Shown here piece by piece: positions 248 through 46,858 of a stretch of 64,000 nt of DNA (its first letter is position 1; every line of letters starts with the position of its first letter). The position numbers and the translations under genes were made by a program. Origin of the DNA: Gammaproteobacteria bacterium (GTDB taxonomy: Bacteria; Pseudomonadota; Gammaproteobacteria; Chromatiales; Chromatiaceae); contig JAJFJN010000040.1 of the NCBI GenBank assembly GCA_021773975.1, positions 1 to 64,000 on the forward strand. Direction: 5' to 3'. The notes below the pieces were generated by a model. It did not search any database. It was not told where the DNA came from and was given only the letters and a program-made list of their open reading frames with translations.

Positions 248-559
248 ATGAAAAAACTATTATTTTTATTTTTCACCCTTATTTCACTCGTAGTTACTAC
301 GCAAGCCAGTAATGCTCCTGATGAAATATGGGTTGATGTACGCACAATTGCCGAGTATCAACAAGGACATAAGGAAGGTGCTATTAATATTCCACATACG
401 GCTATTGCTCAAAAGATAGCAAAAGTCGCTAAAGACAAAATCACAAAAATACATCTCTATTGTGCTGCTGGTGTACGTGCAGGCATTGCCAAAAGCACGC
501 TTGAACGCCTGGGATACAGTAACGTTACTAATGAGGGTGGGTTATCTGATGTGCAATAG
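248..559 (+). CDS. Periplasmic single-domain rhodanese (PspE-like)
   Basis: This 103-residue protein starts with a signal peptide (residues 1-20, cleavage after TQA). A single rhodanese domain follows, with the WVDVRTIAEYQQGH entry motif and an active-site loop CAAGVRAG whose Cys72 would carry the persulfide. The family moves sulfane sulfur between small donors and acceptors. Size and layout match E. coli PspE, with a slightly shorter C-terminus (GGLSDVQ). A GTG at 239 could add three residues, but the ATG at 248 places the basic MKK directly before the hydrophobic core. It appears to be a single-gene unit followed by a hairpin. The exact substrate is unknown. Confidence 0.85.
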   Translation: MKKLLFLFFTLISLVVTTQASNAPDEIWVDVRTIAEYQQGHKEGAINIPHTAIAQKIAKVAKDKITKIHLYCAAGVRAGIAKSTLERLGYSNVTNEGGLSDVQ

Positions 560-684
560 CTGACAGCACTAAACGGAAGAACGGGGACACAGCCAGGGAT
601 CAGTATGAAGTGGCAATTTCAAGACGCTTAGTTAAGCAAGCCGTTGCTGGCATTTGCTGATCTTAACAGCACTTTCGGTGGTAC

Positions 685-722
685 CCGCTGCCACTATCTC
701 TGAAGATAGCGGCAGCGGTTTT
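685..722 (+). terminator. Rho-independent terminator after the rhodanese gene
   Basis: A 15-bp inverted repeat (685-699 with 704-718, one mismatch, 4-base loop) is followed directly by TTTT on the plus strand. It lies about 125 bases after the rhodanese stop. The minus strand has no T-run after the hairpin, so it would not end the nirT-like gene as efficiently. Confidence 0.65.
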
Positions 723-768
723 ACATGCCTTCTAATCCCTGTGTTTTTAAAGCTACAGGTATCAGTGG

Positions 769-3528
769 CTATTGAGCCGTGGCATTAACCTCGGTCTCGG
801 CATTATCAAAGCCCAGCTTATAGCCCAAAGAGACATGGTGATAACGGCCGTTCGTGTGATCATCATGAATAGCAAAGCCAAGATTATAGACTTTACCCAT
901 AGCCAGACTCAGATCACCAGGCTTGTCAGAAGCTAGCTTACGCTGCATAACCACAGTCCATGTACTGCCATCTAGCGTAGCACTGGCAGAGAGCGCTTGG
1001 CCGCCTTCCATTATGCGGTCTTCAAGGATGTGTCCATTCTCTGTCTGGCCTGTACCCGATTTGACCCGCAGAAGATCCATGTAGTGGCCTGCAGTCAGCT
1101 CACCTTGGGTCTCGGCATCTGGCTTGCGCTTATCCCAACCACCCCGCTTCTTGCCGCGCTTACCCTTGATCTCAATCTTGGTGCGGCTCTCAGTGATGTA
1201 TTTGGTAACATCCTTGCCCTCTGGCTGATGCGGCATGGCATTCAAGTCATGATGACAGGTGCCCCAGCAGCCGGCCTGAGAGGCATACTCCACATCATCT
1301 GTCGCCAACATCACGGCCAGCTTGATGGGGTTTTCTGGATCCATCTTGCCACCATCAACAAACGGGGCCGGAGTGTGATCACTTGCGTCCCACTGAAAGC
1401 GCAGATAGAGGTTCTCTTTATCGTGAGTTGCCTCAACTTGAACTGAGAAGGCACCACGTTTACCTGGGATGACCGTAGGCTCAGTCACATTCTCGTGCTT
1501 GCCCTCAATAATCCGCGGCCCCATATCGAGGGCCTCATTATCGTGACAGTCAAAACAACGATCACCACTCTTGGTGAAGGCGCGTGCGCCACCATGATTC
1601 TTGCCGGTTAACACCCACTCCATAGAGGCTTGCCCAGGATAAAAAATATTGATTTCACGGCCTGACGCCTTGCTCCAGTCAACACTGCTTGCAACAGCTG
1701 CTCCACCACCGCCGGCGGCTTTTGGTGCGGCTGAGGCAGCAGCTGGCGCACCAGCAGGAGCTGCCTTGACATCACGTTTGACCACATTAACCTCAGCTTC
1801 AGCATTATCAAAACCTAGCTTGTAGCCCAAAGATACATGGTGATAACGGCCGTTTGTGTGGTCATCATGGACTGCAAAACCAAGATTATAGACCTTATCC
1901 AGAGCCAGACTTAGATCGCCAGCTTTGCCAGAGGTCAGCTTACGCTCCATGACCACGGTCCAGGTACTGCCATCCAGTGTAGCACTGGCTGTCAGTTCCT
2001 GGCCGCCCTCCATTATCCGGTCTTCCAGGATGTGACCATCCTCGGCTTGGCCGGTACCAGACTTGACGCGTAGAATATCCATGAAGTGGCCGGCGCCCAG
2101 CTCGCTCAGTATCTCTGCATCAGGTTTGCGCTTATCCCAACCACCCCGTTTCTTACCGCGCTTACCCTTGATCTCAATCTTGCTGCGGCTCTCTGTGATG
2201 TACTTAGTAACTTTTTGCCCTTCTGCAAGATGAGGCATACCGTTCAGGTCGTGGTGGCAGGTGCCCCAGCAGCCGGCTTGAGATGCATACATCACATCAT
2301 CTGTGGCGAGCATGACGGCCAGCTTGATGGGGTTTTCTGGATCCATCTTGCCGCCATCCACAAATGGGGCTGGGGTATGGTCACCAGCTTCCCACTGGAA
2401 ACGTAGATAGAGGCTCTCACCATTATGAGCAGCCTGCACTTGAACAGGGAAAGCACCTCGTTTACCCGGGATGACCGTAGGTTCGGTTACATTTTCATGC
2501 TTGCCACCGACAATCCGTGGCCCCATATCCAGGGCCTCTTTATCGTGACAGTCAAAACAGCGGTCACCACTCTTGGTAAAGGCGCGGGCGCCACCATGAT
2601 TTTTACCGGTTAGCACCCACTCCATGGAGGCTTGCCCCGGATAGAAGATATTGATTTCGCGGGCAGGCACGTCAGCCCAGTCTGGGCCAGCTGTAGCAGC
2701 ACCAGCTCCTCCGGTTGCTACAGCACCGCCGCCAGCTGCGGCAGCAGCAAGGGCATCTGTTACTGCTTTATCAATGCGAGCCTTCTCAGCCTCTTTGGCT
2801 GCTTTCTTTGCCGCACGTTCTTTCTCTTTGTCAGCCTGCTTTTTAGCTTTTTCATCAGCTTCAGCTTTTTCAACCTCAGCCAAGCCATCCAGATACATCT
2901 GCGGCACTTCGCGAATCATATCTGGGTTTGGTGCTTCCAGCGCCTCCAGCTCCTCTTCTGTGAGTTGGTTACGTACTTCCTTGTGTGCGATACCCTTGTG
3001 GCAATCGATACAGGTTTGTCCGGTCTTGAAAGCATTCAGGTGCTGTTTCCGAGCCCGTGGGCGCTGAAATTTAGGATTCATTGCATCAAAGTGGTGACAG
3101 TTCCGGCACTCACGGGAATCTGTCGTTTTCATGGTATTCCAAACGCGCTTAGCCAATTGCAGGCGCTTGCCATCGAATTTTTCAGGGGTATTTACTGTAC
3201 CCATAATCTTGTGGAAGACTTCGCCACTAGCTTGAACCTTACGGATCATCTTTGCAATCCAAGGGCGCGGGACATGGCAATCAGGGCAGCCTGCCTGTAC
3301 GCCACTGCGATTCCCATAGTGGATGGTAGGCTTGTATTCCTGATAGACGTTCTCTTCCATCTCGTGGCAGCCAATACAGAACTGCATTGTATTGGTGGCT
3401 TCCATGGCCGTATTAAAACCAGCCCAGAAAAAAACACCGACAATGAAGAAGACAACTGCACTGCCGACCGTAGTCCCCATCACAATCCTTCGAGAGAAAA
3501 AATTCGGTTTTTTTAATGGCTCAACCAT
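769..3528 (-). CDS. NapC/NirT tetraheme quinol dehydrogenase fused to two tandem EB_dh-type heme domains
   Basis: This is a 919-residue membrane-anchored multiheme cytochrome. Residues 15-37 form one N-terminal membrane helix. A NapC/NirT domain follows with four CXXCH sites (Cys51, 81, 141, 173), the family that takes electrons from quinol and passes them to periplasmic reductases. An Ala/Lys/Glu-rich linker (about 217-255) leads to two copies of an ethylbenzene-dehydrogenase-gamma-like domain, residues 290-580 and 624-914. Each copy holds one CFDCH and one CWGTCH, a three-residue spacing. The copies differ at only 36 of 291 positions by my count. Single EB_dh fusions to NirT are known in sulfur-oxidising proteobacteria; a doubled one is odd. 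It lies just downstream of nirS1 behind a terminator, so nitrite reduction is the inferred role. The ATG at 3528 was chosen; a GTG at 3543 lacks a ribosome site. Confidence 0.85.
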   Translation of the reverse strand: MVEPLKKPNFFSRRIVMGTTVGSAVVFFIVGVFFWAGFNTAMEATNTMQFCIGCHEMEENVYQEYKPTIHYGNRSGVQAGCPDCHVPRPWIAKMIRKVQASGEVFHKIMGTVNTPEKFDGKRLQLAKRVWNTMKTTDSRECRNCHHFDAMNPKFQRPRARKQHLNAFKTGQTCIDCHKGIAHKEVRNQLTEEELEALEAPNPDMIREVPQMYLDGLAEVEKAEADEKAKKQADKEKERAAKKAAKEAEKARIDKAVTDALAAAAAGGGAVATGGAGAATAGPDWADVPAREINIFYPGQASMEWVLTGKNHGGARAFTKSGDRCFDCHDKEALDMGPRIVGGKHENVTEPTVIPGKRGAFPVQVQAAHNGESLYLRFQWEAGDHTPAPFVDGGKMDPENPIKLAVMLATDDVMYASQAGCWGTCHHDLNGMPHLAEGQKVTKYITESRSKIEIKGKRGKKRGGWDKRKPDAEILSELGAGHFMDILRVKSGTGQAEDGHILEDRIMEGGQELTASATLDGSTWTVVMERKLTSGKAGDLSLALDKVYNLGFAVHDDHTNGRYHHVSLGYKLGFDNAEAEVNVVKRDVKAAPAGAPAAASAAPKAAGGGGAAVASSVDWSKASGREINIFYPGQASMEWVLTGKNHGGARAFTKSGDRCFDCHDNEALDMGPRIIEGKHENVTEPTVIPGKRGAFSVQVEATHDKENLYLRFQWDASDHTPAPFVDGGKMDPENPIKLAVMLATDDVEYASQAGCWGTCHHDLNAMPHQPEGKDVTKYITESRTKIEIKGKRGKKRGGWDKRKPDAETQGELTAGHYMDLLRVKSGTGQTENGHILEDRIMEGGQALSASATLDGSTWTVVMQRKLASDKPGDLSLAMGKVYNLGFAIHDDHTNGRYHHVSLGYKLGFDNAETEVNATAQ
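787..1659 (-). repeat. Intragenic tandem repeat, copy 2 (C-terminal EB_dh domain)
   Basis: This 873-base unit encodes residues 624-914 of the NirT-EB_dh fusion. It is a direct copy of 1789-2661, with scattered mostly synonymous differences at DNA level and 36 amino-acid changes in 291. An Ala/Gly/Pro-rich linker separates the copies. Confidence 0.95.
1789..2661 (-). repeat. Intragenic tandem repeat, copy 1 (first EB_dh domain)
   Basis: This unit encodes residues 290-580 of the NirT-EB_dh fusion and pairs with 787-1659. Both copies begin at REINIFYPGQASMEWV and end at GYKLGFDNAE. Both keep the CFDCH and CWGTCH sites and a strongly basic KIEIKGKRGKKRGGW segment. Confidence 0.95.
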
Positions 3529-3584
3529 AGTCTCACGCCCCACGTTTGGACTTAATTTTGTTAATTATACGAAGTAAAAAACGC

Positions 3585-3626
3585 AAAAAAAAGCGGACAC
3601 GAATACAGAATATCCATGCCCGCTTT
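3585..3626 (-). terminator. Rho-independent terminator of nirS copy 1
   Basis: On the minus strand, arms at 3625-3611 and 3605-3591 pair over 15 positions, counting G-T wobbles, around a 5-base loop. A run of U residues follows (A-run at 3585-3590 on the plus strand). Its arm AAGCGGGCATGGATA resembles the terminator arm of nirS copy 2 (AAGCGGGGATGGA). Confidence 0.85.
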
Positions 3627-3652
3627 ATTTAGACAATGTCTACACGGACTTA

Positions 3653-5308
3653 TTAGGTCACGTGGTTGGTGCGGTTATAGACATTGAACTTACCTGTTGG
3701 TGTTGACAGGCCTTTGATGCGTTTGATCTCTTTAAGAGTCTTGGCATCATAGATCACGATCTCACCTTTAGGCTTCATGTTGTCTTTACGGTTCCAAACA
3801 GAAACCCAGACTTCAGTACCATCTTTGTTGAACTCCATATGGAGAACAAGCATCTTCTCTTCTTCGGTGACGCGGATGGTTTTTACGATCTCACGGGTCT
3901 TCTTGCTAATGACCTGCACACTCTGCTGAACTTCAACCTCAGGGTGCTTAAGTTGGTCAGCCCAGTAGTAGTCGCTCTTTGGATGGGTACGAATGAATGC
4001 ACCAGCACCATCAGTCTCGACTTCGTAGCAGAGTTTCCAAGCCTGATCAGGATGTCCTTTTGGATCGCTGCCCCATACGGAGACTTTGCCGACACCCAAG
4101 TGAGTGGTTCCGCTAACAGGTCCACACTTAGGGTCGTCCCAGTTTGCACCAGGACCTGGATGAGGTTTCTTATCCACATCAATCATGGCTTCCAGTGTTC
4201 CGCCATCTTTGGTGTCAATAATAACCATCTTGTTTGATGCGTTAGCAGCAATCTGGAAGTAACGACCGGTGGTATCAAAGAAACCATCGTGCAAGTACTT
4301 CGCTGAGTTGATCATGGAGATCTTCAGATTTTCCAGATCGGTGTAGTCAACCTGCCACATCTGACCCAGCTCTTTAGCAGCAACCAGGAATGCAGACTCA
4401 TTAGGTGTGGTGTAGATAGCAGCAACACGAGACTCGTTGACAAACTCACCATCGACATTAATACCACGGGTTGAAACCACTTTAATAGGCTTCATGGTAT
4501 CGGCATCAACAAGGACGAAGTGACCAGGCCAGTAACCGCCTGCGATAACGGTTTTACCGTCACCAGATACAGCTACGTCGCGAGCGTCATAAGCGATCTG
4601 GGTTTCAGCAACCAGCATTTTGTCTGGAGTCTGCCACAGGTCATACTTGTTCAGCTTGCCATCACGACCAATGGAGTACCAAAAGCGACCAGGGGTCTTG
4701 GCGTGATCTTTGGAATGATGCTCAGTAGCTTTGATAACGTGTACAGCATAGCCAGCATTCAGGTGAGCAACGATCTCTTTCTTGTCACCATCGATGATGG
4801 CCACCTTACCGACATCACGCTCGATAACTACGAAGAAGTTCTCCCAGTTACGGCCATGCATCGGCTTGGTAGGGTAGTCTTTAACTTCAATGTAGACTTT
4901 GGTACGTTCCTGCATCATTGCCAGAGACATCTCAGGTGGAACAGGTGGCTCCATCTGGATGTAGGTGGCCAACAGACTGATCTCATCTTTCGAGAAGATG
5001 TCGTCAAAGTTGTTCATGCCGCCTTCGGTACCAAGACCAATGATCTTCTCCAGACGCTTCTGCCCCAGCTTGAGAGTACCCTTGTCCTTGTTCTTTTTGT
5101 TAGGTTTAGGCTCCAGATTGGGGCCGGTAGCACCTACACGCAGAACGCCGTGACAACCAGCACAACGTTGGAAGTACATGGTCTTTGCTTTTTCAAAGTC
5201 AGCTTCTGAAAGAGTAGGAGCTCCCGCAGTAGCCACAGATGCTGCACCAGACATAGCCAAACCCATGGCCAGGCCTAGAGCAGATATTCCAAAACGTGAT
5301 TTCTTCAT
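3653..5308 (-). CDS. nirS: Cytochrome cd1 nitrite reductase NirS (copy 1)
   Basis: This periplasmic enzyme reduces nitrite to nitric oxide and is 551 residues long. Residues 1-28 are a signal peptide ending at ATA-GAP. The cytochrome c domain carries CAGCH (Cys49, Cys52, His53). The eight-bladed heme d1 propeller follows. By family alignment, His190 in GYAVH is the proximal d1 ligand, and His340 (YLHDG) and His403 (TTHLG) are the active-site histidines. The start at ATG 5308 is supported by AGGGGAAATAGG just upstream and the signal peptide; an in-frame upstream extension is not needed. It is preceded by an FNR/DNR-like box at 5427-5440 and followed by its own terminator. A second nirS lies at 44431-46059. 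Confidence 0.97.
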   Translation of the reverse strand: MKKSRFGISALGLAMGLAMSGAASVATAGAPTLSEADFEKAKTMYFQRCAGCHGVLRVGATGPNLEPKPNKKNKDKGTLKLGQKRLEKIIGLGTEGGMNNFDDIFSKDEISLLATYIQMEPPVPPEMSLAMMQERTKVYIEVKDYPTKPMHGRNWENFFVVIERDVGKVAIIDGDKKEIVAHLNAGYAVHVIKATEHHSKDHAKTPGRFWYSIGRDGKLNKYDLWQTPDKMLVAETQIAYDARDVAVSGDGKTVIAGGYWPGHFVLVDADTMKPIKVVSTRGINVDGEFVNESRVAAIYTTPNESAFLVAAKELGQMWQVDYTDLENLKISMINSAKYLHDGFFDTTGRYFQIAANASNKMVIIDTKDGGTLEAMIDVDKKPHPGPGANWDDPKCGPVSGTTHLGVGKVSVWGSDPKGHPDQAWKLCYEVETDGAGAFIRTHPKSDYYWADQLKHPEVEVQQSVQVISKKTREIVKTIRVTEEEKMLVLHMEFNKDGTEVWVSVWNRKDNMKPKGEIVIYDAKTLKEIKRIKGLSTPTGKFNVYNRTNHVT

Positions 5309-5426
5309 TAACCTATTTCCCCTGAATTTTATTATCAGATGTAGAAACTGAAACCGCAAGGACGATACCCACGGTAACGCGACAAACTGTCGTGGCGTAA
5401 TGTGATGCTTCTGTCGCTTAGCGTCT

Positions 5427-5440
5427 TTGACCTAAATCAA
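5427..5440 (-). promoter_or_regulatory. FNR/DNR-like box for nirS1
   Basis: The minus-strand sequence is TTGATTTAGGTCAA, one mismatch from TTGAT-N4-ATCAA. It lies 119 bases before the nirS1 start codon, exactly the spacing seen for nirS2. Sequence just after the box (AAGACGC) is also shared with nirS2 (AAGACCC). Confidence 0.75.
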
Positions 5441-5485
5441 AATTTTCTTCTCAGCACAATAAATCTTATCCGTGCAGATTAACTC

Positions 5486-5499
5486 TTGATGTAAGTCAA
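5486..5499 (+). promoter_or_regulatory. FNR/DNR-like box, divergent to hemerythrin
   Basis: The sequence TTGATGTAAGTCAA has one mismatch to TTGAT-N4-ATCAA. It sits 46 bases from the nirS1 box and 133 bases before the hemerythrin start. It could serve either gene, because no convincing -10 sits 22-23 bases downstream on the plus strand. Confidence 0.55.
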
Positions 5500-5632
5500 T
5501 AAACTATACCGAAATCTCTGTCACCCTTTGGCATAACTATGAACGCATCTGAACGGTGCACCGGCTCCAACGCAGAGATTCTGCGAGCAAACATAACCCT
5601 TAACAATACAAGCTCAGAAATAAGGTAGATAA

Positions 5633-6268
5633 ATGAAAGCCATAAAGATGTTACTCCAGGCCATGCTATTTGGCATGTTAGCAATTGCTACGATCGTCGC
5701 CTTCGTATCCTTTGGTATGTTGCATCCTGCCCCATGGGTAACACTCGCAATCCTTATTGGCGTGCCTATCCTTAACAATAAGCTTGAGGCGCGTGCATAC
5801 GTAAAGTGGAAGGATCAGTACAACGTTGGCGTCGACCTGATTGATGAAGATCATCAAAAGCTGATGAACCTAATCAATAAGTTGAAGATGGCTGTTGAAT
5901 ACCACACTGGCGAGTGTTTTGAAAAGCAGGCCATGGATGAGCTGGCCGAATGGACAAAAAACCACTTCGCTCGAGAAGAAATATTAATGCAGCGTCACGG
6001 CTATCCAGGATATGAAGCGCATAAAAAGATACATGACGATATGCTTGCCCGAGTTGCCGCCTCCATCGAGGATTATGACCAGCGCGGACATGATGCCCTG
6101 CTTGACGTCGCCCCAATGGCTCGCGACTGGCTGGTTAACCACATCTACAAGGTTGATCAATCCTATGCGCGCTTTCTCAAAGAGAAAGGGTTGCTTGATA
6201 ACGAAGAGATCAAAAGATGTTGCTGTGAGGATGAAAATTCAGCATGTGGATCTGCCAAGGATGAGTGA
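5633..6268 (+). CDS. Membrane-anchored bacteriohemerythrin
   Basis: This 211-residue protein has two N-terminal hydrophobic segments (about 8-29 and 33-48) and then a cytoplasmic hemerythrin domain. The full canonical di-iron ligand set can be read: His74, His111, Glu115, His130, His134, His170 and Asp175. Such domains bind O2 and some bind NO. The tail ends with CCC (196-198) and Cys205, which is not part of the fold. The start has AAGGT upstream. It is divergent from nirS1 across a gap with two FNR/DNR-like boxes and is followed by a terminator, so it is a single-gene unit. I infer a role in O2 or NO handling during the switch to nitrite respiration; this is untested. Confidence 0.88.
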   Translation: MKAIKMLLQAMLFGMLAIATIVAFVSFGMLHPAPWVTLAILIGVPILNNKLEARAYVKWKDQYNVGVDLIDEDHQKLMNLINKLKMAVEYHTGECFEKQAMDELAEWTKNHFAREEILMQRHGYPGYEAHKKIHDDMLARVAASIEDYDQRGHDALLDVAPMARDWLVNHIYKVDQSYARFLKEKGLLDNEEIKRCCCEDENSACGSAKDE

Positions 6269-35910: not shown

Positions 35911-37371
35911 TCAATTGCTCACCGCCCGTTCTGGTTCAGGCCATGCCTTTGGTTCAAAGATAAGTGCCTCTTCAGTGCCGCTTTCACCTGTTTGATACCA
36001 ATTCAGCTTGTCGCGTAACTTAACCACTTCACCAACAATGATCAGAGTGGGAGGCTTGGGTTTATATTTTTCAGCAATACCCGGTAGCGTGGCAAGGGTT
36101 CCGGTGTAGACCTTCTGCTGAGGGGTAGTGCCTTGTTGTACCAGCGCAGCAGGTAGATCCGCAGACATGCCGTGGGCCTGAAGCTCGCGGCAGATATGTG
36201 GCAAACTCATAAGCCCCATGTAAAACACTACGGTCTGTTTGGGTTGTGCCAGCGCCGTCCAGTTGAGGTTCAGGCTGTCATCCTTCAGATGACCCGTTAC
36301 AAAGACGACTGATTGCGCATAGTCTCTGTGAGTCAACGGGATACCCGAGTATGAGGCACAACCTGAGGCAGCGGTAACACCGGGTACTACCTGAAATGGA
36401 ACACCCTGTGCAGCAAGGGTATCAATCTCTTCTCCGCCACGCCCAAAAATAAAGGGATCGCCACCTTTGAGTCGCACAACCCGTTTACCCTGTTTGGCCA
36501 GATCAGCCAACAGCTGGTTAATGTCTTCCTGGCGCATAACGTGGTGGTTATTCTCCTTACCCACGTAAACGCGCTCTGCATCCCGTCGTGTCATCTCCAA
36601 TATTGGTTTTGAGATAAGACGATCATAGACCACGACATCAGCCTGTTGCATCAGGCGCAGGGCACGAAAAGAGAGCAGATCCGGATCACCGGGACCGCCT
36701 CCGACCAGGTAGACTTCACCCATGCCATCTGTGGTCAACGAGGTCTCCGCCAGCGCTTGTTCCATCAGTTGATTGGCCTCTTCATGATGACCAGAGAACA
36801 CGCGCTCTGCCACGCCGCCTTGCAGAACACTCTCCCAGAAACGGCGACGATCAGTAGGATCTGTAAAGCGCGCCTTCACTCGATCCCGGAAGCTACTGGC
36901 CAACTCTGCCAAACGTCCATAACCAGAAGGAATCAATGACTCCAGACGACCACGAATGAGCCGTGCCAATACAGGCGAAGCACCACTGGTAGAGATGGCA
37001 GCAATCACCGGAGAGCGATCAATAATAGAAGGCATGATAAAGCTACAAAGCTCTGGCTGATCCACCACGTTGACAGGGATACCACGTGACTGAGCCTCTT
37101 CGGAGATCTGCCTATTCACCTCAGAATTATCCGTGGCTGCAATCACGAGACGAGCCCCTTGCAGATCTCCCTGGCAGTACTCACGTGCCTTATGCTCAAT
37201 CTCATTCTGTTCTTTCAGCGCTGATAGGCTAGGACCCAGCTCCGGCGAGATCACACAAATGGATGCATGCGCATTTTGCAGAAGCGCTGCTTTTCGGCTG
37301 GCAATTTCACCCCCACCAATGACAATGCAGGGCTTAGCTTTTATATCAAGAAATATTGGTAAATAATCCAT
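35911..37371 (-). CDS. cysG: Siroheme synthase CysG
   Basis: This 486-residue trifunctional enzyme makes siroheme from uroporphyrinogen III. The N-terminal half is precorrin-2 dehydrogenase and ferrochelatase (Rossmann motif VIGGGEIASRKAALL). The C-terminal half is the SAM-dependent methyltransferase (VYLVGGGPGDPDLLSFRALR and VVRLKGGDPFIFGRGGEE). Siroheme is the substrate of the NirDLGH heme d1 route encoded just upstream. No separate nirE is present, so CysG probably supplies that step. It ends in its own terminator. Confidence 0.96.
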   Translation of the reverse strand: MDYLPIFLDIKAKPCIVIGGGEIASRKAALLQNAHASICVISPELGPSLSALKEQNEIEHKAREYCQGDLQGARLVIAATDNSEVNRQISEEAQSRGIPVNVVDQPELCSFIMPSIIDRSPVIAAISTSGASPVLARLIRGRLESLIPSGYGRLAELASSFRDRVKARFTDPTDRRRFWESVLQGGVAERVFSGHHEEANQLMEQALAETSLTTDGMGEVYLVGGGPGDPDLLSFRALRLMQQADVVVYDRLISKPILEMTRRDAERVYVGKENNHHVMRQEDINQLLADLAKQGKRVVRLKGGDPFIFGRGGEEIDTLAAQGVPFQVVPGVTAASGCASYSGIPLTHRDYAQSVVFVTGHLKDDSLNLNWTALAQPKQTVVFYMGLMSLPHICRELQAHGMSADLPAALVQQGTTPQQKVYTGTLATLPGIAEKYKPKPPTLIIVGEVVKLRDKLNWYQTGESGTEEALIFEPKAWPEPERAVSN

Positions 37372-38024: not shown

Positions 38025-39596
38025 CTAATGACTGGTTCCGCTGGAACGGGTTAGTTTGTTATGCACGTTATACTTGCCTGATGGCTTACTCATGGGAAGT
38101 CGCTTCACCTCTTCCAGGGTTTTTGCATCATAGATAATCAATGCGCCCTCTTTATCCCAGATACTGAGCAGGGCATACGAGCCATCCTTAGTAAATTCAA
38201 TATGGGCAGAGGTCTTTCCTGGCATTGGCTTTAGGGTCTTAACAATCTCCAGCGTGCGTTTATCGATGACATGCATGAGATCCTTGTTGGGGCCGAAAAA
38301 GACATCCACCCAGGCGTAGGGGCTATTCTCATGGCTGCGCATAAAGAAGCCGGGGCCATCGGTTTTGATCTCCTTCACTACCTTCCAGCTCTGCATGTCG
38401 ATAACGGTGACCAATCCCTCTTTGATATTGGGCGTAGCCATCACGGGATGACCTTTGTACTCCCAAGTAATGGCTGAACTGAGGTGTGGCATGCCCGGTA
38501 GGGTAACTGCTTTGACTGCTCGTCGTAGATCAAGATCCACTACCTGACCACCACCACTGCGGGAGGTACCAATGATCTGGGTGTAGTCCTGATTCATAAA
38601 GAAATCATCCAGATAATCATCAGTCTTGACCCGTCGCACCGCAAATTGCTGCTCTTGATTACCTTCACCACCCTCTGGGTTGTAGTCATGCATCCAGCCT
38701 GAAAAGCCCATCGGCGGCTGATCGGCATAGCTGATCTCCCACACCTCTTTGATATCCTTCATGGCGGCGAAAAAGCTCTCACGCGGAGCGGCTGTGTAGA
38801 CAGCACTTACCCGGGAGGTCTGTCCTTTATCATCAACGGCAGAGATAACCTTAATAGGTTTAAGATCATTGGCATCCAATACTGTTAGCGTATGTGGCAG
38901 ATAGTTGGCCACAATGACATAACGACCATCTGCCGAGACCGCCAGATTGCGGGTATTGATCCCGGCCCGCACCTCCGCCACATACTTCAGGTTGTAGATA
39001 TCAAACTTACTGATCCAGCCATCGCGCGAGGCAAAGTAGACATAACGCCCATTCGGACCATATTTCGGGCCACCGTGCAGGGCAAAGCGGGTAGGAAAAC
39101 GTTTGATAGACTCAAAGGTATCGCCATTCAATAGGGTGGCGTGATGATCACCCAGCTCCACCACCACGAACAGGTTATCCATTGTGGCTTTAAAAATGGG
39201 CTTATCGGAGAGGGTTTCAGGCTTGTTTGGCACCAGATGACTGGCGTGGATCTGCTCCATGCCCCACTCTGGAATAGTCTCCAGCGGCATGTAGACCAGA
39301 TCAACCAACGCCTGGATCTCTTCACTTTTTAGCTTGTCACCAAACGCTGGCATCTGGGTAGCAGCACGCCCTTTGGTGATGACCTTAACGGCTGATTTCT
39401 TACGCAGGCGTTTTAGGTTTTGTGGCAGCAGCGCTGGCCCCATCTTCCCCAGCCGGTCAGGGTTGTGGCATTCAGAGCAGTGCGTCTTATAGAGTGCTTT
39501 GGCATCAATGGCCGCCCCACCAACTACGGTGCCACTAAAGATCAGAGCCAGCAGTAAAAAAGCCCATGTAGGTTTATTTGTAGCCATCTGCAGCAT
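38025..39596 (-). CDS. nirN: NirN, heme d1 protein with cytochrome c domain
   Basis: This periplasmic NirS paralogue converts dihydro-heme d1 to heme d1 in the last maturation step. With the ATG at 39596 it is 523 residues long, with a signal segment (about 8-27), a c-type heme site CSECH (Cys40-His44) and a d1 propeller starting near FKATMDNLFVVVELGD. A start at 39587 is equally possible, and neither has a strong ribosome site. It begins directly after the nirJ stop. It differs from NirS by a shorter linker and lack of the GYAVH motif. Confidence 0.92.
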   Translation of the reverse strand: MLQMATNKPTWAFLLLALIFSGTVVGGAAIDAKALYKTHCSECHNPDRLGKMGPALLPQNLKRLRKKSAVKVITKGRAATQMPAFGDKLKSEEIQALVDLVYMPLETIPEWGMEQIHASHLVPNKPETLSDKPIFKATMDNLFVVVELGDHHATLLNGDTFESIKRFPTRFALHGGPKYGPNGRYVYFASRDGWISKFDIYNLKYVAEVRAGINTRNLAVSADGRYVIVANYLPHTLTVLDANDLKPIKVISAVDDKGQTSRVSAVYTAAPRESFFAAMKDIKEVWEISYADQPPMGFSGWMHDYNPEGGEGNQEQQFAVRRVKTDDYLDDFFMNQDYTQIIGTSRSGGGQVVDLDLRRAVKAVTLPGMPHLSSAITWEYKGHPVMATPNIKEGLVTVIDMQSWKVVKEIKTDGPGFFMRSHENSPYAWVDVFFGPNKDLMHVIDKRTLEIVKTLKPMPGKTSAHIEFTKDGSYALLSIWDKEGALIIYDAKTLEEVKRLPMSKPSGKYNVHNKLTRSSGTSH

Positions 39597-39597
39597 C

Positions 39598-40782
39598 TTA
39601 TTGATTACCCACGGGGTTGTTATCCATATCCCTCGTCTCATTTCCAATGCCAATCTCAGCATCGGTGAGATAACAAGCCGGGTCTTCAGACCAGGGATCA
39701 CCCGTCAGCTGCATGGCCCGCACTCGGGTATTACCACCACAGATGCCGAAATGCTTACACTGGCCACAGCGGCCTGAAATAACCCTTGGGCTTGCCTTCA
39801 GGCCTGCCATTATAGGGTCAGAGGTATCCATCCAGATCTCTGAAAAGGGACGTTTTTTTACATTACCCAGATCATGATTCCACCACATGGTGTCCGGATG
39901 CACATGGCCCAGGTTATCAATATTGGCCACATTTACCCCAGAGCTGTTGCCGCCCCACTGGTTTAGTTTGACCTCCATATGTGCCGCCTGCTCCGGGTAA
40001 TTTTTCTTGATCCACTGCAGCATGTAGACGCCATCTGCATCGTTATTACCCGTGACAAATTCCGTCTGCCTGCCTGCACGCACGTCAGCCAGCGCATGCT
40101 CAAACAACAGCTCCATGGCCCAGCGGGTGGTCTGCAGGAAGACATCCGTTTCACGGTTTTTGTTACCGCGCCCAGCATAATTAAGATGGGAGAAGTAGAA
40201 CTTATCAACACCCTCGTCATCCATCAGTTGTAGCAGCTGCGGAAGTTCCTCGGCATTATCCTGGGTCATGGTGAAGCGCAGCCCCACCTTCATGCCCCGA
40301 TCACGGCACATGCGCAGACCATTCAGCGCGGCATCAAACCCACCCTTCATGCGGCGAAACTCATCGTGCGTATCTTTGATGCCATCGATGCTGATGCCGA
40401 CGTAGTCGTAGCCGATCTCATTGATGGCCTCGATATTCTCATCACTGATCAGCGTACCGTTGGTGGAGAGGGCGGTAAAAAAGCCCATCTCTTTGGCGTG
40501 GTGGGAGATCTTGAAGATATCTGGGTGCATCAGCGGCTCACCACCCGAGAGGATCAGCACCGGCACGCAGAACTGCTTGAGGTCATCCATCACGGTATAG
40601 ATTTGATCAGTGCTCAACTCACCGGGAAAATCAGTATCCGCAGAGATGGAGTAGCAGTGTTTGCAGGTCAGGTTGCAGCGGCGGATCAGGTTCCAGATAA
40701 CCACTGGGCCTGGCGGGTTACGTTTTGGACCCAAAGGTTTTGGATTCACCAACTCATTCATGTATTGCGAAATACGAAACAT
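39598..40782 (-). CDS. nirJ: Radical SAM heme d1 synthase NirJ
   Basis: This 394-residue radical SAM enzyme removes the propionate side chains during heme d1 synthesis. The cluster-binding motif CNLTCKHC has Cys36, Cys40 and Cys43. The C-terminal SPASM-type cysteine region reads CGQCKHFGICGGN. It is cytoplasmic. It sits between nirH and nirN in the standard nir order. Confidence 0.96.
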   Translation of the reverse strand: MFRISQYMNELVNPKPLGPKRNPPGPVVIWNLIRRCNLTCKHCYSISADTDFPGELSTDQIYTVMDDLKQFCVPVLILSGGEPLMHPDIFKISHHAKEMGFFTALSTNGTLISDENIEAINEIGYDYVGISIDGIKDTHDEFRRMKGGFDAALNGLRMCRDRGMKVGLRFTMTQDNAEELPQLLQLMDDEGVDKFYFSHLNYAGRGNKNRETDVFLQTTRWAMELLFEHALADVRAGRQTEFVTGNNDADGVYMLQWIKKNYPEQAAHMEVKLNQWGGNSSGVNVANIDNLGHVHPDTMWWNHDLGNVKKRPFSEIWMDTSDPIMAGLKASPRVISGRCGQCKHFGICGGNTRVRAMQLTGDPWSEDPACYLTDAEIGIGNETRDMDNNPVGNQ

Positions 40783-42234: not shown

Positions 42235-42701
42235 AATGGAAAACCCAGGTCGATGTGAAAGTGCTTCATCAGTGGCAGGTAGAGTACAGGCTGACCGCTG
42301 TACGCCTCTATCTCGGCCAATACCTCATCCACCCGCAGTTGATTAGGTGCGGTTATAACGAACCAGAGATTCAAACGATGTAGACGCTCGTAGTTATGAT
42401 TAACCTCATCAAAGCCACTGACATAGGCTGCAACAGATTCTAATGATTCCGGCGGTACAGCAACCGCTGCCAGCGTACTGGCTCCTGCCCGCTTGGGCTT
42501 AAATACGGGGCCAACACGACTGATAAACCCTTGTTCCTGCATATCACTGAGGATACGCAGCACCTCATCCTCTGTTGTACCCAGATGCTGTGCGATATCT
42601 GCAAAGGGTGTCACAGAGAGCGGCAACCCCTGCTGATACTCATTGAGCAAGCGTTTCTCCAGCTCCGTCAGCAACTCTGGATTTACAGCCTTCGCCAGCA
42701 T
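42225..42701 (-). CDS. nirD: Siroheme decarboxylase component NirD
   Basis: This 158-residue AsnC/Lrp-like protein is first in the nirDLGH series. The segment SRVGPVFKPKRAGASTLAAVAVP and the NHNYERLHRLNLWFVIT pattern are typical of NirD. Its start shares a base with the nirF stop and its end overlaps nirL. Confidence 0.88.
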   Translation of the reverse strand: MLAKAVNPELLTELEKRLLNEYQQGLPLSVTPFADIAQHLGTTEDEVLRILSDMQEQGFISRVGPVFKPKRAGASTLAAVAVPPESLESVAAYVSGFDEVNHNYERLHRLNLWFVITAPNQLRVDEVLAEIEAYSGQPVLYLPLMKHFHIDLGFPLWC

Positions 42702-43873
42702 TACAAGCCCGTCTTGTGCGCGCGCGAGGTAAAAAAGATGCCACTGGGTTTGTCTACTGGCAGACTACCAATCTGTTCCAGTGTGGTGGTGTCAAAGATC
42801 TTGACCTGATCCAGATCACGGATAGAGATCCACACCTCTTCGCCACGTGGAGAGAACTCCATATGCAGCGCGCCCTTGCCTGGCTTCAGGGTTTTAACAA
42901 TCTTCAGGGTTTCGGTATCAATTACTTGAATGGTGTCGTTATGAGGGAAGGCAAAATTGACCCAAACCTGTCGCCCATCAGGACGAGCGATAGCGAATAC
43001 GGGCTGCCCATGAACGGGGATACGCCCCGTAGGTTGCCAACTATTGTGGTTTACCACCAATACCTCATGGTGGCCAATAGCCGGTAGGAAGGCCTGGTTA
43101 CCTGCAACAGCCCACCCTTCCAGATGTGGCATCTTATAGACTGGCAACTGTTTTTTGCCTTTACCATAATGGTTCAGGATGCGGGTCGGTCCTTTTTCAA
43201 CATGCCAAAGATCCAGCAGGGTCAGGCCATCCTCACCAAACAGACCTGCAATATAGTAACGACCATCCGGTGTAATCAAACCATCATAAGGCTGGAGGCC
43301 AGCATCTTTGAATTGGGTAAGTTTAGGGGATTTGGGATCACTCATATCAGCAATCCAAATCTCATGGGTGTCGTAAAGGCCAAAGACAAAACGCTGCCCC
43401 GGCGCATCCACCAGCCCAACTGTTTTGGAGCCTTTGCCTTTGGGTGTTTGAGTGGCTGGAATATCCGCCACCAGTTCCAATGTCTCCGCAGAGAAGACCT
43501 TAACCCCACCTGGCTCATAATTAGAGACCGCAATCAGTCGTCCATCCTGTGAGATAGCGCCGCCGATACTATTGCCACCCTGCACTACACGCTTAACCAG
43601 CGTACCACAGAGGATATCCACCTTTGAGAGTCCACCATCACGCCCAAAAACATAGGCATAACGTGCATCACGGGAATAGACCACTGAGGCATGCGAGAGA
43701 TCACCCAGCCTCTTAACTTGAAATAGTTCTTTACGGTTAGTGGTATCCATCACCTTTACACTACCTGCTGCTCGCTCAATGATGATGCCAAGATCACCTG
43801 TGCCACGAGTCAAACACTCAGCGGCCTGTGCAACAGAGGAAACCAGAAAAAGCGCAACAAAAATGAATCTCAT
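42701..43873 (-). CDS. nirF: Heme d1 biosynthesis protein NirF
   Basis: This 390-residue periplasmic d1-type propeller protein has a signal peptide (about 1-17, ending AQA) and no cytochrome c domain. NirF produces dihydro-heme d1 before NirN acts. The propeller shows GNSIGGAISQDGRLIAVSN and HMEFSPRGEEVWISIRD. It overlaps nirC by four bases (ATGA). A Cys at residue 20 is not within a convincing lipobox. Confidence 0.93.
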   Translation of the reverse strand: MRFIFVALFLVSSVAQAAECLTRGTGDLGIIIERAAGSVKVMDTTNRKELFQVKRLGDLSHASVVYSRDARYAYVFGRDGGLSKVDILCGTLVKRVVQGGNSIGGAISQDGRLIAVSNYEPGGVKVFSAETLELVADIPATQTPKGKGSKTVGLVDAPGQRFVFGLYDTHEIWIADMSDPKSPKLTQFKDAGLQPYDGLITPDGRYYIAGLFGEDGLTLLDLWHVEKGPTRILNHYGKGKKQLPVYKMPHLEGWAVAGNQAFLPAIGHHEVLVVNHNSWQPTGRIPVHGQPVFAIARPDGRQVWVNFAFPHNDTIQVIDTETLKIVKTLKPGKGALHMEFSPRGEEVWISIRDLDQVKIFDTTTLEQIGSLPVDKPSGIFFTSRAHKTGL

Positions 43874-44430: not shown

Positions 44431-46059
44431 TCAGGTAACATGATTAATGCGATTGTAAACATTAAACTTACCTGTTGGTGTCCGTAACCCTTTAATTCGC
44501 GCCTTTTCCCGCAGGGTTTTGGCATCATAGATAACAACATAACCACTATCATTACTATAGTCTTTACGGTTCCAAGCCGAAACCCAAACCTCAGTACCAT
44601 CCTTGTTGAATTCGATATGCACCGCAGCAAAACCAGGATTCTTGGTAACACGAATGGTTTTAACAATCCGCCCCGTCTTCTTGCTGATAACCTGCACACT
44701 CTGTTTAACTACCTGTTCAGGGTGCATCAACTGATCTGCCCAAACAAAATCACTTTTCGGATGAGTACGAATAAATGAACCCGCACCATCCACCTTGATT
44801 GTTTTACAAATCTTCCATGCCTGTTTTGGATGCCCCACAGGATCATTGCCCCAGGTTATTACCTTCGCCGAACCCAGATGCACAGTACCGCCAACAGGGC
44901 CGCACTCTGGATCAACCCAGTTGGCACCTGGCCCCGGATGAGGCTTTTTTGCCACATCAATCATGGTTGTCAGCTTTCGGGTCTCGGTATCAATGATTAC
45001 CATCTTGTTTGAGGCATTTGCTGCCACCTGAAAATAACGACCGGTAGGATCAAAAAAGCCATCATGCAGATAGCGCGCAGCATTGATCTTATCTACACGC
45101 AGGTTATCAAGATCTCGATAATCCACTTGCCAAACCTGACCCAACTCCTTTGCTGCAACCAAAAAGGTCGACGCATTTGGCGTGGTATCTACTGTAGCCA
45201 CACGCGATTCATTAATAAAAAAGCCATCGATATTTGCACCGCGGGTTGAAACCACCTTGAGTGGGTTCATTGTTTCTGCATCAATAATGACAAAATGCGG
45301 CGGCCAATAACCACCTGCAATCAGGTATTTGCCATCACCAGAGACTGAGATATCACGCGCATCATAGGCAATTTGAGTTTCAGCAACCAGCATGCGTTCC
45401 GGTGTTTGCCAGAGATCAATCTTCTTTACTCGGCCGTCTCGGCCAATGGTGTACCAAAAACGCCCCGGATTTTTCACACTCTCTGTAGCATGGCGTTCTG
45501 CTGATTTGGCCACATGCACTGCATAACCCGTATTAATGTGCTTTACGATCTCATGCTTGTCACCATCAACAATCGCCACCTTCCCAGCATCGCGCTCAAT
45601 AATGATAAAAAAGTTTTCCCAATTACGATCATGCTGGGGCTGCGTGGGATAATCTTTTGGCTCGACAAAAACCCGAGTACGCTTCTGCATTGTCTCCAGC
45701 GACATCTCAGGCGGAACAGGTGGATCTAACTGAATGTATTTAGCCAGCAGAGTGATTTCATCTCGCGTAAAGATGTCATCAAAGTTGTTCATGCCACCTT
45801 CTGTACCAAAGGCAATAATTTTCTCTAAACGCCGCTGCCCCTTCTTTTTCGTGCTCTTTGGCTCAAGATTCTTGCCCGTTGCTCCTTTACGCAAAGCGCC
45901 ATGACACCCAGCACAACGCTGGAAGTAGAGTGTTTTTGCTTTTTCAAAATCAACCTCTGAGAGCACGGCCCCACTTGAAGCCAACACAGGAAGAGCGCCT
46001 ACTATCGTCATACTGAAAGCCATACTCAATAGAGCCATTTTAAAGCTTAATTTATTCAT
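44431..46059 (-). CDS. nirS: Cytochrome cd1 nitrite reductase NirS (copy 2)
   Basis: This 542-residue periplasmic nitrite reductase reduces nitrite to nitric oxide. A signal peptide spans about 1-28, and the heme c site is CAGCH (Cys49, Cys52, His53). The d1 ligand is His182 in GYAVH. Active-site histidines His332 (YLHDG) and His394 (TVHLG) are present, so it should be active. Compared with copy 1 it has a shorter Lys-rich insert after heme c. The leader TTCAGGCGAAAAGG resembles that of copy 1. It is divergent from a hemerythrin gene and heads the maturation locus. Confidence 0.97.
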   Translation of the reverse strand: MNKLSFKMALLSMAFSMTIVGALPVLASSGAVLSEVDFEKAKTLYFQRCAGCHGALRKGATGKNLEPKSTKKKGQRRLEKIIAFGTEGGMNNFDDIFTRDEITLLAKYIQLDPPVPPEMSLETMQKRTRVFVEPKDYPTQPQHDRNWENFFIIIERDAGKVAIVDGDKHEIVKHINTGYAVHVAKSAERHATESVKNPGRFWYTIGRDGRVKKIDLWQTPERMLVAETQIAYDARDISVSGDGKYLIAGGYWPPHFVIIDAETMNPLKVVSTRGANIDGFFINESRVATVDTTPNASTFLVAAKELGQVWQVDYRDLDNLRVDKINAARYLHDGFFDPTGRYFQVAANASNKMVIIDTETRKLTTMIDVAKKPHPGPGANWVDPECGPVGGTVHLGSAKVITWGNDPVGHPKQAWKICKTIKVDGAGSFIRTHPKSDFVWADQLMHPEQVVKQSVQVISKKTGRIVKTIRVTKNPGFAAVHIEFNKDGTEVWVSAWNRKDYSNDSGYVVIYDAKTLREKARIKGLRTPTGKFNVYNRINHVT

Positions 46060-46177: not shown

Positions 46178-46191
46178 TTGATTCAAATCAA
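46178..46191 (-). promoter_or_regulatory. Perfect FNR/DNR box for nirS2
   Basis: The minus-strand sequence is TTGATTTGAATCAA, an exact match to TTGAT-N4-ATCAA. It lies 119 bases before the nirS2 ATG, the same distance as the nirS1 box. Confidence 0.85.
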
Positions 46192-46423: not shown

Positions 46424-46858
46424 ATGCCAACAATTACAGATACCATGTCCGCCGATCACAAACGGTGCGATGAATTATTTGCATCAGCAGAGGATGCAGT
46501 CTCCAAAGGGGATTGGGAGGCCGGCGCGACCTCTTTTAGTGATTTTCATGATGCTACAGAACAACATTTCTCCAAGGAAGAGGCGGTACTATTTCCCGCT
46601 TTTGAGCAAAGTACCGGCATGACATCCGGCCCAACCCAGGTGATGCGCATGGAGCACATGCAAATGCGCCAGCTGCTTGCAGACATGAATGAGAGCGTTG
46701 AAGAGAAAGACCAGGAAAAATACCTTGGCCTATCCGAGACTCTGATTATGGTCATGCAGCAACATAATACCAAGGAAGAGCAGATCGTTTACGTTATGGC
46801 TGACCAGTCTCTGCGTGAAAAAGCAGATGATGTTCTGACTCAAATGGGCATGAACTAA
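46424..46858 (+). CDS. HHE-type hemerythrin domain protein
   Basis: This 144-residue soluble protein has a hemerythrin HHE fold. Likely iron ligands are His12, His48, Glu52, His78, His114 and Glu118 (DHKRCDE, QHFSKEE, MEHMQM, QQHNTKEEQ). It belongs to a different branch from the 5633 protein and has no membrane segment. CGGAAA lies upstream of the ATG. It is divergent from nirS2 and followed by DUF2249 and a polytopic membrane protein, a grouping seen in denitrifiers. A role in NO or iron-nitrosyl handling is inferred. Confidence 0.85.
   Translation: MPTITDTMSADHKRCDELFASAEDAVSKGDWEAGATSFSDFHDATEQHFSKEEAVLFPAFEQSTGMTSGPTQVMRMEHMQMRQLLADMNESVEEKDQEKYLGLSETLIMVMQQHNTKEEQIVYVMADQSLREKADDVLTQMGMN

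Follow-up and report, generated by a model that had tools for sequence, protein, structure and literature searches.

A probable nirT-nirB-nirB fusion gene lies directly downstream of nirS

The window analysed here, which comprises the first 64,000 nucleotides (nt) of contig JAJFJN010000040.1 of a Gammaproteobacteria bacterium, carries a single open reading frame without interruption at 769..3543 (−), which encodes 924 aa from a GTG codon; an in-frame ATG at 3528 is likely the true start and would give 919 aa. Based on the ORF listing and Pfam, this gene is best read as a fusion of nirT with two copies of nirB. The NapC/NirT module (2974..3465 (−), residues 27-190) matches PF03264 at 235.6 bits against a gathering cut-off of 24.1 and contains four CXXCH motifs at residues 56, 86, 146 and 178, while its score of 257.5 against NCBIfam TIGR02161 (napC_nirT subfamily) lies below the cut-off of 310.6, and the protein is not filed there. 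Its N-terminal membrane anchor appears as a hydrophobic stretch in the sequence and as a helix in a low-confidence model. A charged, Lys/Glu/Ala-rich linker (2734..2901 (−)) leads from NapC to the first NirB and is predicted as a single long helix (model residues 210-265), in which the confidence of the ten-residue blocks of this low-confidence model drops from 82 to 63 and is 42 in the last block.

Pfam and motif searches place the first NirB/EB_dh domain, which was also modelled as a domain, at 1786..2673 (−) with CXXCH at residue 329 and CX3CH at 425, and the second at 784..1671 (−) with CXXCH at 663 and CX3CH at 759. The two are joined by an Ala/Gly/Pro-rich linker (1672..1785 (−)), the end of which, VDWSKAS, was identified as the lead of copy 2 by the lead comparison described below. 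PF09459 (EB_dh) was found in two stretches of the whole protein with 214.5 bits (cut-off 33.3), and each copy alone passes the same cut-off with 108.1 and 102.1 bits. These matches and the N-terminal anchor bear out an earlier note on this DNA, which had described a membrane-anchored fusion of NapC/NirT with two EB_dh copies, and a motif scan of the whole fusion protein returned the six CXXCH and two CX3CH sites which that note had counted. The repeat starts at residues 295 and 629 and has 40 differences over 296 residues, four of them in the last four positions; the earlier count of 36 differences in 291 residues agrees with this once the four end positions are set aside. At the DNA level, 783-1082 and 1785-2084 are 83% identical at a spacing of 1002 nt and, judged from its length, such an in-register match is not a chance match.

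With about 17% of bases differing between the two copies, and this layout also present in other assemblies, including those of named strains (L010, L012 and L013) and a 4.1 Mb scaffold (L020), an assembly artefact, which the earlier note had kept in view, was ruled out. A pseudogene copy was likewise ruled out for the window protein, because both copies retain all heme residues and dN/dS between them is about 0.08. One homologue, sampled twice as L022 and L093, has an in-frame stop inside its second copy.

Linkage to nirS and a conserved hairpin in the intergenic gap

Upstream of the fusion gene lies nirS1 (3653..5359 (−)), encoding a cytochrome cd1 nitrite reductase that matches PF02239 and the solved nitrite reductase 1bl9 (E 1.7e-125). 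To be testable for this linkage a fused locus from the genome collection had to have at least 1800 nt upstream, and 23 ORFs were excluded because of truncation or a contig end nearby; nirS was found within 800 nt upstream on the same strand in all 58 testable loci (18 double and 40 single).

The gap between nirS1 and nirTBB holds a terminator-like hairpin (3590..3626 (−)) of 17 pairs with a T tail, the longest stem among eight sites found by a terminator scan of 500-5700, in which 4.2 were expected from shuffles. Such hairpins were found in 51 of 62 homologous nirS-nirT(B) gaps, compared with 5% of shuffled gaps, the shuffles preserving base composition only. The hairpin is therefore probably a conserved attenuator, and its conservation suggests that NirS may be made in excess, with the donor produced by read-through.

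Two FNR/DNR-like boxes were found by motif scan upstream of nirS1, one at 5427..5440 (+) with one mismatch and another at 5486-5499, and a perfect TTGATNNNNATCAA box, a type that we take to be FNR/DNR-like, is located at 46178-46191 (+) upstream of a second nirS. In the whole window eight such boxes were counted against 3.8 expected, a weak excess that 5 of 100 shuffles reach. The second NirS (44431-46059 (−)) is 70% identical to nirS1, lies about 39 kb from nirS1/nirTBB and heads a heme d1 cluster, which further includes 42701-43873, 39598-40782, 38025-39701 and 35911-37371 and contains two more cd1-propeller proteins (putatively NirF- and NirN-like), NirJ (TIGR04051 above cut-off) and CysG. 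A hemerythrin-domain gene is positioned divergently upstream of each nirS (5633-6268 (+) and 46424-46858 (+)). No second full-length nirTBB was found in the genome, and the same genome encodes a further EB_dh protein of another type, in which cytochrome c domains precede EB_dh (L169:3675-5264).

NirB as the most likely identity of the EB_dh domain

In the accessible text of PMC13086519, NirT is described as a tetraheme and NirB as a diheme cytochrome, encoded directly after nirS, with NirT required for nitrite reduction. Gene order, motifs and these published descriptions together make NirB, which is the diheme cytochrome encoded in nirS-nirT-nirB clusters, the best identification of the EB_dh domain, and the window protein is best called NirT-NirB-NirB. 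The order nirS-nirT-nirB is kept both where the pieces are fused, after nirS in each of the 58 testable loci, and where they are separate genes, as in a locus of the same class (L156) whose standalone EB_dh protein has one CXXCH and one CX3CH. Each NirB domain has two heme motifs: CXXCH, CX3CH and two further histidines are invariant across 43 aligned domains, standalone ones included, and both heme motifs are also invariant in the 70 copies from 35 doubled proteins. Given the invariance in the 43 domains, eight c-hemes are likely in the whole protein, and the heme at CX3CH would be covalently bound.

For six of the seven standalone EB_dh proteins, the stretch retrieved around the gene contains no nirS (one of these stretches is only 6 kb long), and in five of these six (L152-L155 and L158) nirT adjoins. 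Rhodocyclus reportedly produces NirB although it has no nitrite reductase (PMC8954225, accessible part). Thus, NirB can serve something other than NirS.

A model of the NirB domain built from 43 sequences reached a pLDDT of 88. Its top structural match was the gamma subunit of ethylbenzene dehydrogenase (2ivf_C, Z 14.9, 185 aligned residues, rmsd 3.5), followed by subunit C of nitrite oxidoreductase (7b04_C, Z 13.1), the next row having only Z 9.2. Foldseek returned the same two entries (2ivf_C, E 1.1e-9; 7b04_C, E 7.5e-8), its own alignment with 2ivf_C being loose (TM 0.44/0.61, rmsd 8.1), and a profile search of the PDB with the domain gave 7b04_C (5.9e-5), 2ivf_C (0.009) and cytochrome c'', the last probably by chance. 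The single-domain sequence had only weak, unrelated matches in the PDB, and the NirT part had none at E 0.001. Both 2ivf_C and 7b04_C are subunits of molybdenum enzymes and have the EB_dh fold in common with the NirB domains, from which they differ in that the latter carry two c-heme motifs per domain and are fused to NapC/NirT. As the whole-protein model was poor (pLDDT 60, pTM 0.35), heme distances or a heme wire were not taken from it.

The doubled form is widespread among relatives

Counted by eye as matches reaching into the second copy, the doubled form is present in 48 of 210 genomes of the order, a count that includes one case truncated at its start where the contig ends (G206), one with an internal stop (G078) and three whose matches stop before the end of the query (G084, G089 and G128), and that leaves out G134, which is doubled but split across two frames. 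About 15 other genomes of the order have, also by eye, NirT and a single NirB in one frame. Within the window's genus five of six genomes carry the doubled form, one of the five being cut by a contig end, and it was not found in the sixth (G205). Named carriers include Sedimenticola selenatireducens, S. hydrogenitrophicus and the symbionts of Lamellibrachia and Escarpia.

In a sample of 369 genomes of the class, 40 match the domain at E 1e-10, and doubled proteins with open frames of 924-998 aa occur in six of these 40, other family codes (f99 and f85) among them; two copies are also present on a contig-end fragment (L160, f154). Standalone EB_dh proteins in this sample have frames of about 326-369 aa. 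Loci labelled alphaproteobacterial have one copy, as do the Azospirillum and Ruegeria plasmids (two of five plasmid records found). The rarity implied by the earlier note was therefore not seen: the doubled layout is old and widespread among relatives, tubeworm symbionts included, and is no recent oddity.

The closest published systems have a single NirB. Stutzerimonas NirT and NirB resemble the window protein in being a tetraheme NapC/NirT protein and a diheme cytochrome encoded right after nirS (PMC13086519 and PMC8954225, accessible parts), but they are two proteins with one NirB, whereas the window has one chain with two NirB domains. The fused NirTB, reported in Halomonas sp. 2A (PMC13086519, same part) and found on the Azospirillum and Ruegeria plasmids, likewise joins NirT and NirB in one chain beside nirS, but with one NirB domain instead of two. 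That single-domain fusions are known, as the earlier note held, is thus in print, and within the literature searched it is the doubled NirB that is new. The note had also asked whether the doubled layout is common and already described; it proved common, and no description was found in the literature searched, which largely excluded subscription papers, where one may exist.

A probable single old duplication followed by homogenisation of the cores

In the window protein the two copies have a dS of 0.83-0.96 and a dN/dS of about 0.08, the comparison across the genus giving a dS of 0.92 and a dN of 0.067 for this pair, and both copies are under purifying selection. A recent duplication, as had been proposed earlier, was ruled out by this dS, and in several species of the genus first copies cluster with first copies and second with second. 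Among five species of the genus, dS ranges from 0.26 to 1.16 within a protein and from 0.60 to 1.68 for the same copy between species. Sites common within a protein outnumber sites common by copy in 19 of 21 comparisons, which cover the genus and two species from a neighbouring one (the window and L003, for instance, give 60 to 8), the exceptions being a tie between L005 and L015 (29 to 29) and a reversal between L005 and L006 (36 to 43). The differences between copies are patchy along the domain, and cores within one protein are 70-93% identical (32 pairs).

The leads preceding the cores behave differently. A P-type (Pro) lead precedes copy 1 in all 35 complete doubled proteins, which include close relatives and are hence not 35 independent cases, and a K-type lead precedes copy 2 in 36 of 36; L023 was counted as single in this comparison because a contig end cuts its second copy. 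Moreover, 19 core columns are copy-specific above the permutation limit, such as VQAAH versus VESTH. In a tree of 70 copy cores, 17 changes of copy label are needed, at least 14 of them forced by starred branches, and the labels nonetheless cluster beyond chance expectation, shuffled labels needing 23.7 changes on average and reaching so low a number in 2 of 500 runs. Since the copy-specific leads hold without exception and yet the core tree requires 17 label changes, most likely one old duplication took place and the cores were then repeatedly homogenised by gene conversion or unequal exchange, of which gene conversion is probably the process at work. The gene conversion that the earlier note had offered as its other option is thus supported, in the form of repeated, patchy homogenisation of cores. 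Fresh exchanges do occur, as in L159:4318-7311, a doubled protein with a partial third tail at its C-terminus, where 833 of 834 core bases agree between the copies.

We infer a single origin of the doubled NirB. The doubled proteins lie scattered over a tree of NirS plus NapC with 62 rows, which implies 5 changes, of which at least 4 are forced, so that losses, transfers or further origins are needed. The window's row was absent from this tree because its locus cut NirS short, L003, L005 and L006 standing for the genus, and L022 was labelled double by hand. A NapC-only tree, which included truncated near-duplicate rows, was weakly resolved (9 single/double changes, at least 3 forced). The NirS plus NapC tree parts the window's genus (L003, L005 and L006) from L004/L021, while the NirB domain trees join them; this disagreement may mean that nirS and nirTBB were exchanged independently of each other.

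Two other histories would account for parts of these data. Independent recent tandem duplications in each lineage would explain why, in the core trees, the two copies of a lineage fall together, why doubled proteins are scattered on the NirS plus NapC tree and why L159 has near-identical cores with a third tail, but the same copy-specific leads in all 35 complete doubled proteins, the 19 copy-specific columns common to doubled proteins and the clustering of core labels beyond chance speak against them, and we regard them as unlikely. We think it equally doubtful that the tandem arose without duplication, by the joining of two already distinct NirB lineages bearing the P- and K-leads. The 73 single fusions do comprise 21 P-type and 8 K-type proteins (44 being neither by the patterns used), and the FastTree tree places several K-like singles (e.g. 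L034, L041, L042, L044 and L061) next to the second copies of L007 and L099; these singles, however, could equally descend from a doubled ancestor that lost copy 1, and the 70-93% identity of cores within one protein speaks against separate lineages. One old duplication with later homogenisation of the cores is the simplest history and the one we prefer.

A putative eight-heme conduit from quinol to NirS

Taken together, we read the window protein as NirT followed by two tandem NirB domains, probably with eight c-hemes, which acts as a quinol-to-NirS donor and derives from one old duplication, with purifying selection on both copies and homogenised cores; we place the probability of this reading as a whole at about 0.82. 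In the accessible text of PMC8954225, the presumed path runs from NirT to NirB and from NirB to NirS. Following family knowledge and what is accessible of PMC13086519 and PMC8954225, the NirT module would oxidise membrane quinol, and electrons would pass from its four hemes to those of NirB and on to the NirS c-heme, after which NirS would reduce nitrite to NO. The linker, charged and probably helical, could serve as a stalk that holds the NirB domains out in the periplasm, away from the membrane.

The adjacent NirS was already proposed as the acceptor in the earlier note, and the position of nirS upstream of all 58 testable fused loci makes this likely at the level of gene order. The same linkage weighs against the possibility that the protein is a general periplasmic quinol dehydrogenase serving another acceptor, its association with nirS being regulatory only. 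NapC-type proteins are promiscuous, nirT-nirB pairs exist without nirS nearby, and the second nirS lies 39 kb off with no second full-length nirTBB found, all of which would fit another acceptor; nevertheless, with nirS directly upstream throughout and NirT published as needed for nitrite reduction (PMC13086519, accessible part), we give this possibility little credence, somewhat less than either alternative history above.

Two NirB domains may have been kept because they let the protein reach further, store more electrons or dock on the two halves of the NirS dimer. NirS is a homodimer, and one might speculate, on a distinctly slim chance, that the NirB pair acts as a bivalent donor which engages both halves at once, with recurrent conversion keeping the two surfaces matched and a small copy-specific patch (residues 68-90, 220-231, 248 and 283 of the domain) setting which copy is proximal and which distal. 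If true, this would be concerted evolution within one protein, driven by a symmetric partner.

Single NirTB fusions were known before, which limits the impact, but these results provide a concrete identity for proteins that carry no annotation beyond "NapC/NirT family cytochrome c". They point to an eight-heme quinol-to-nitrite-reductase conduit in relatives of Sedimenticola and in tubeworm symbionts, and the long-lived tandem with homogenised cores offers a tractable system in which to study concerted evolution within one bacterial protein.
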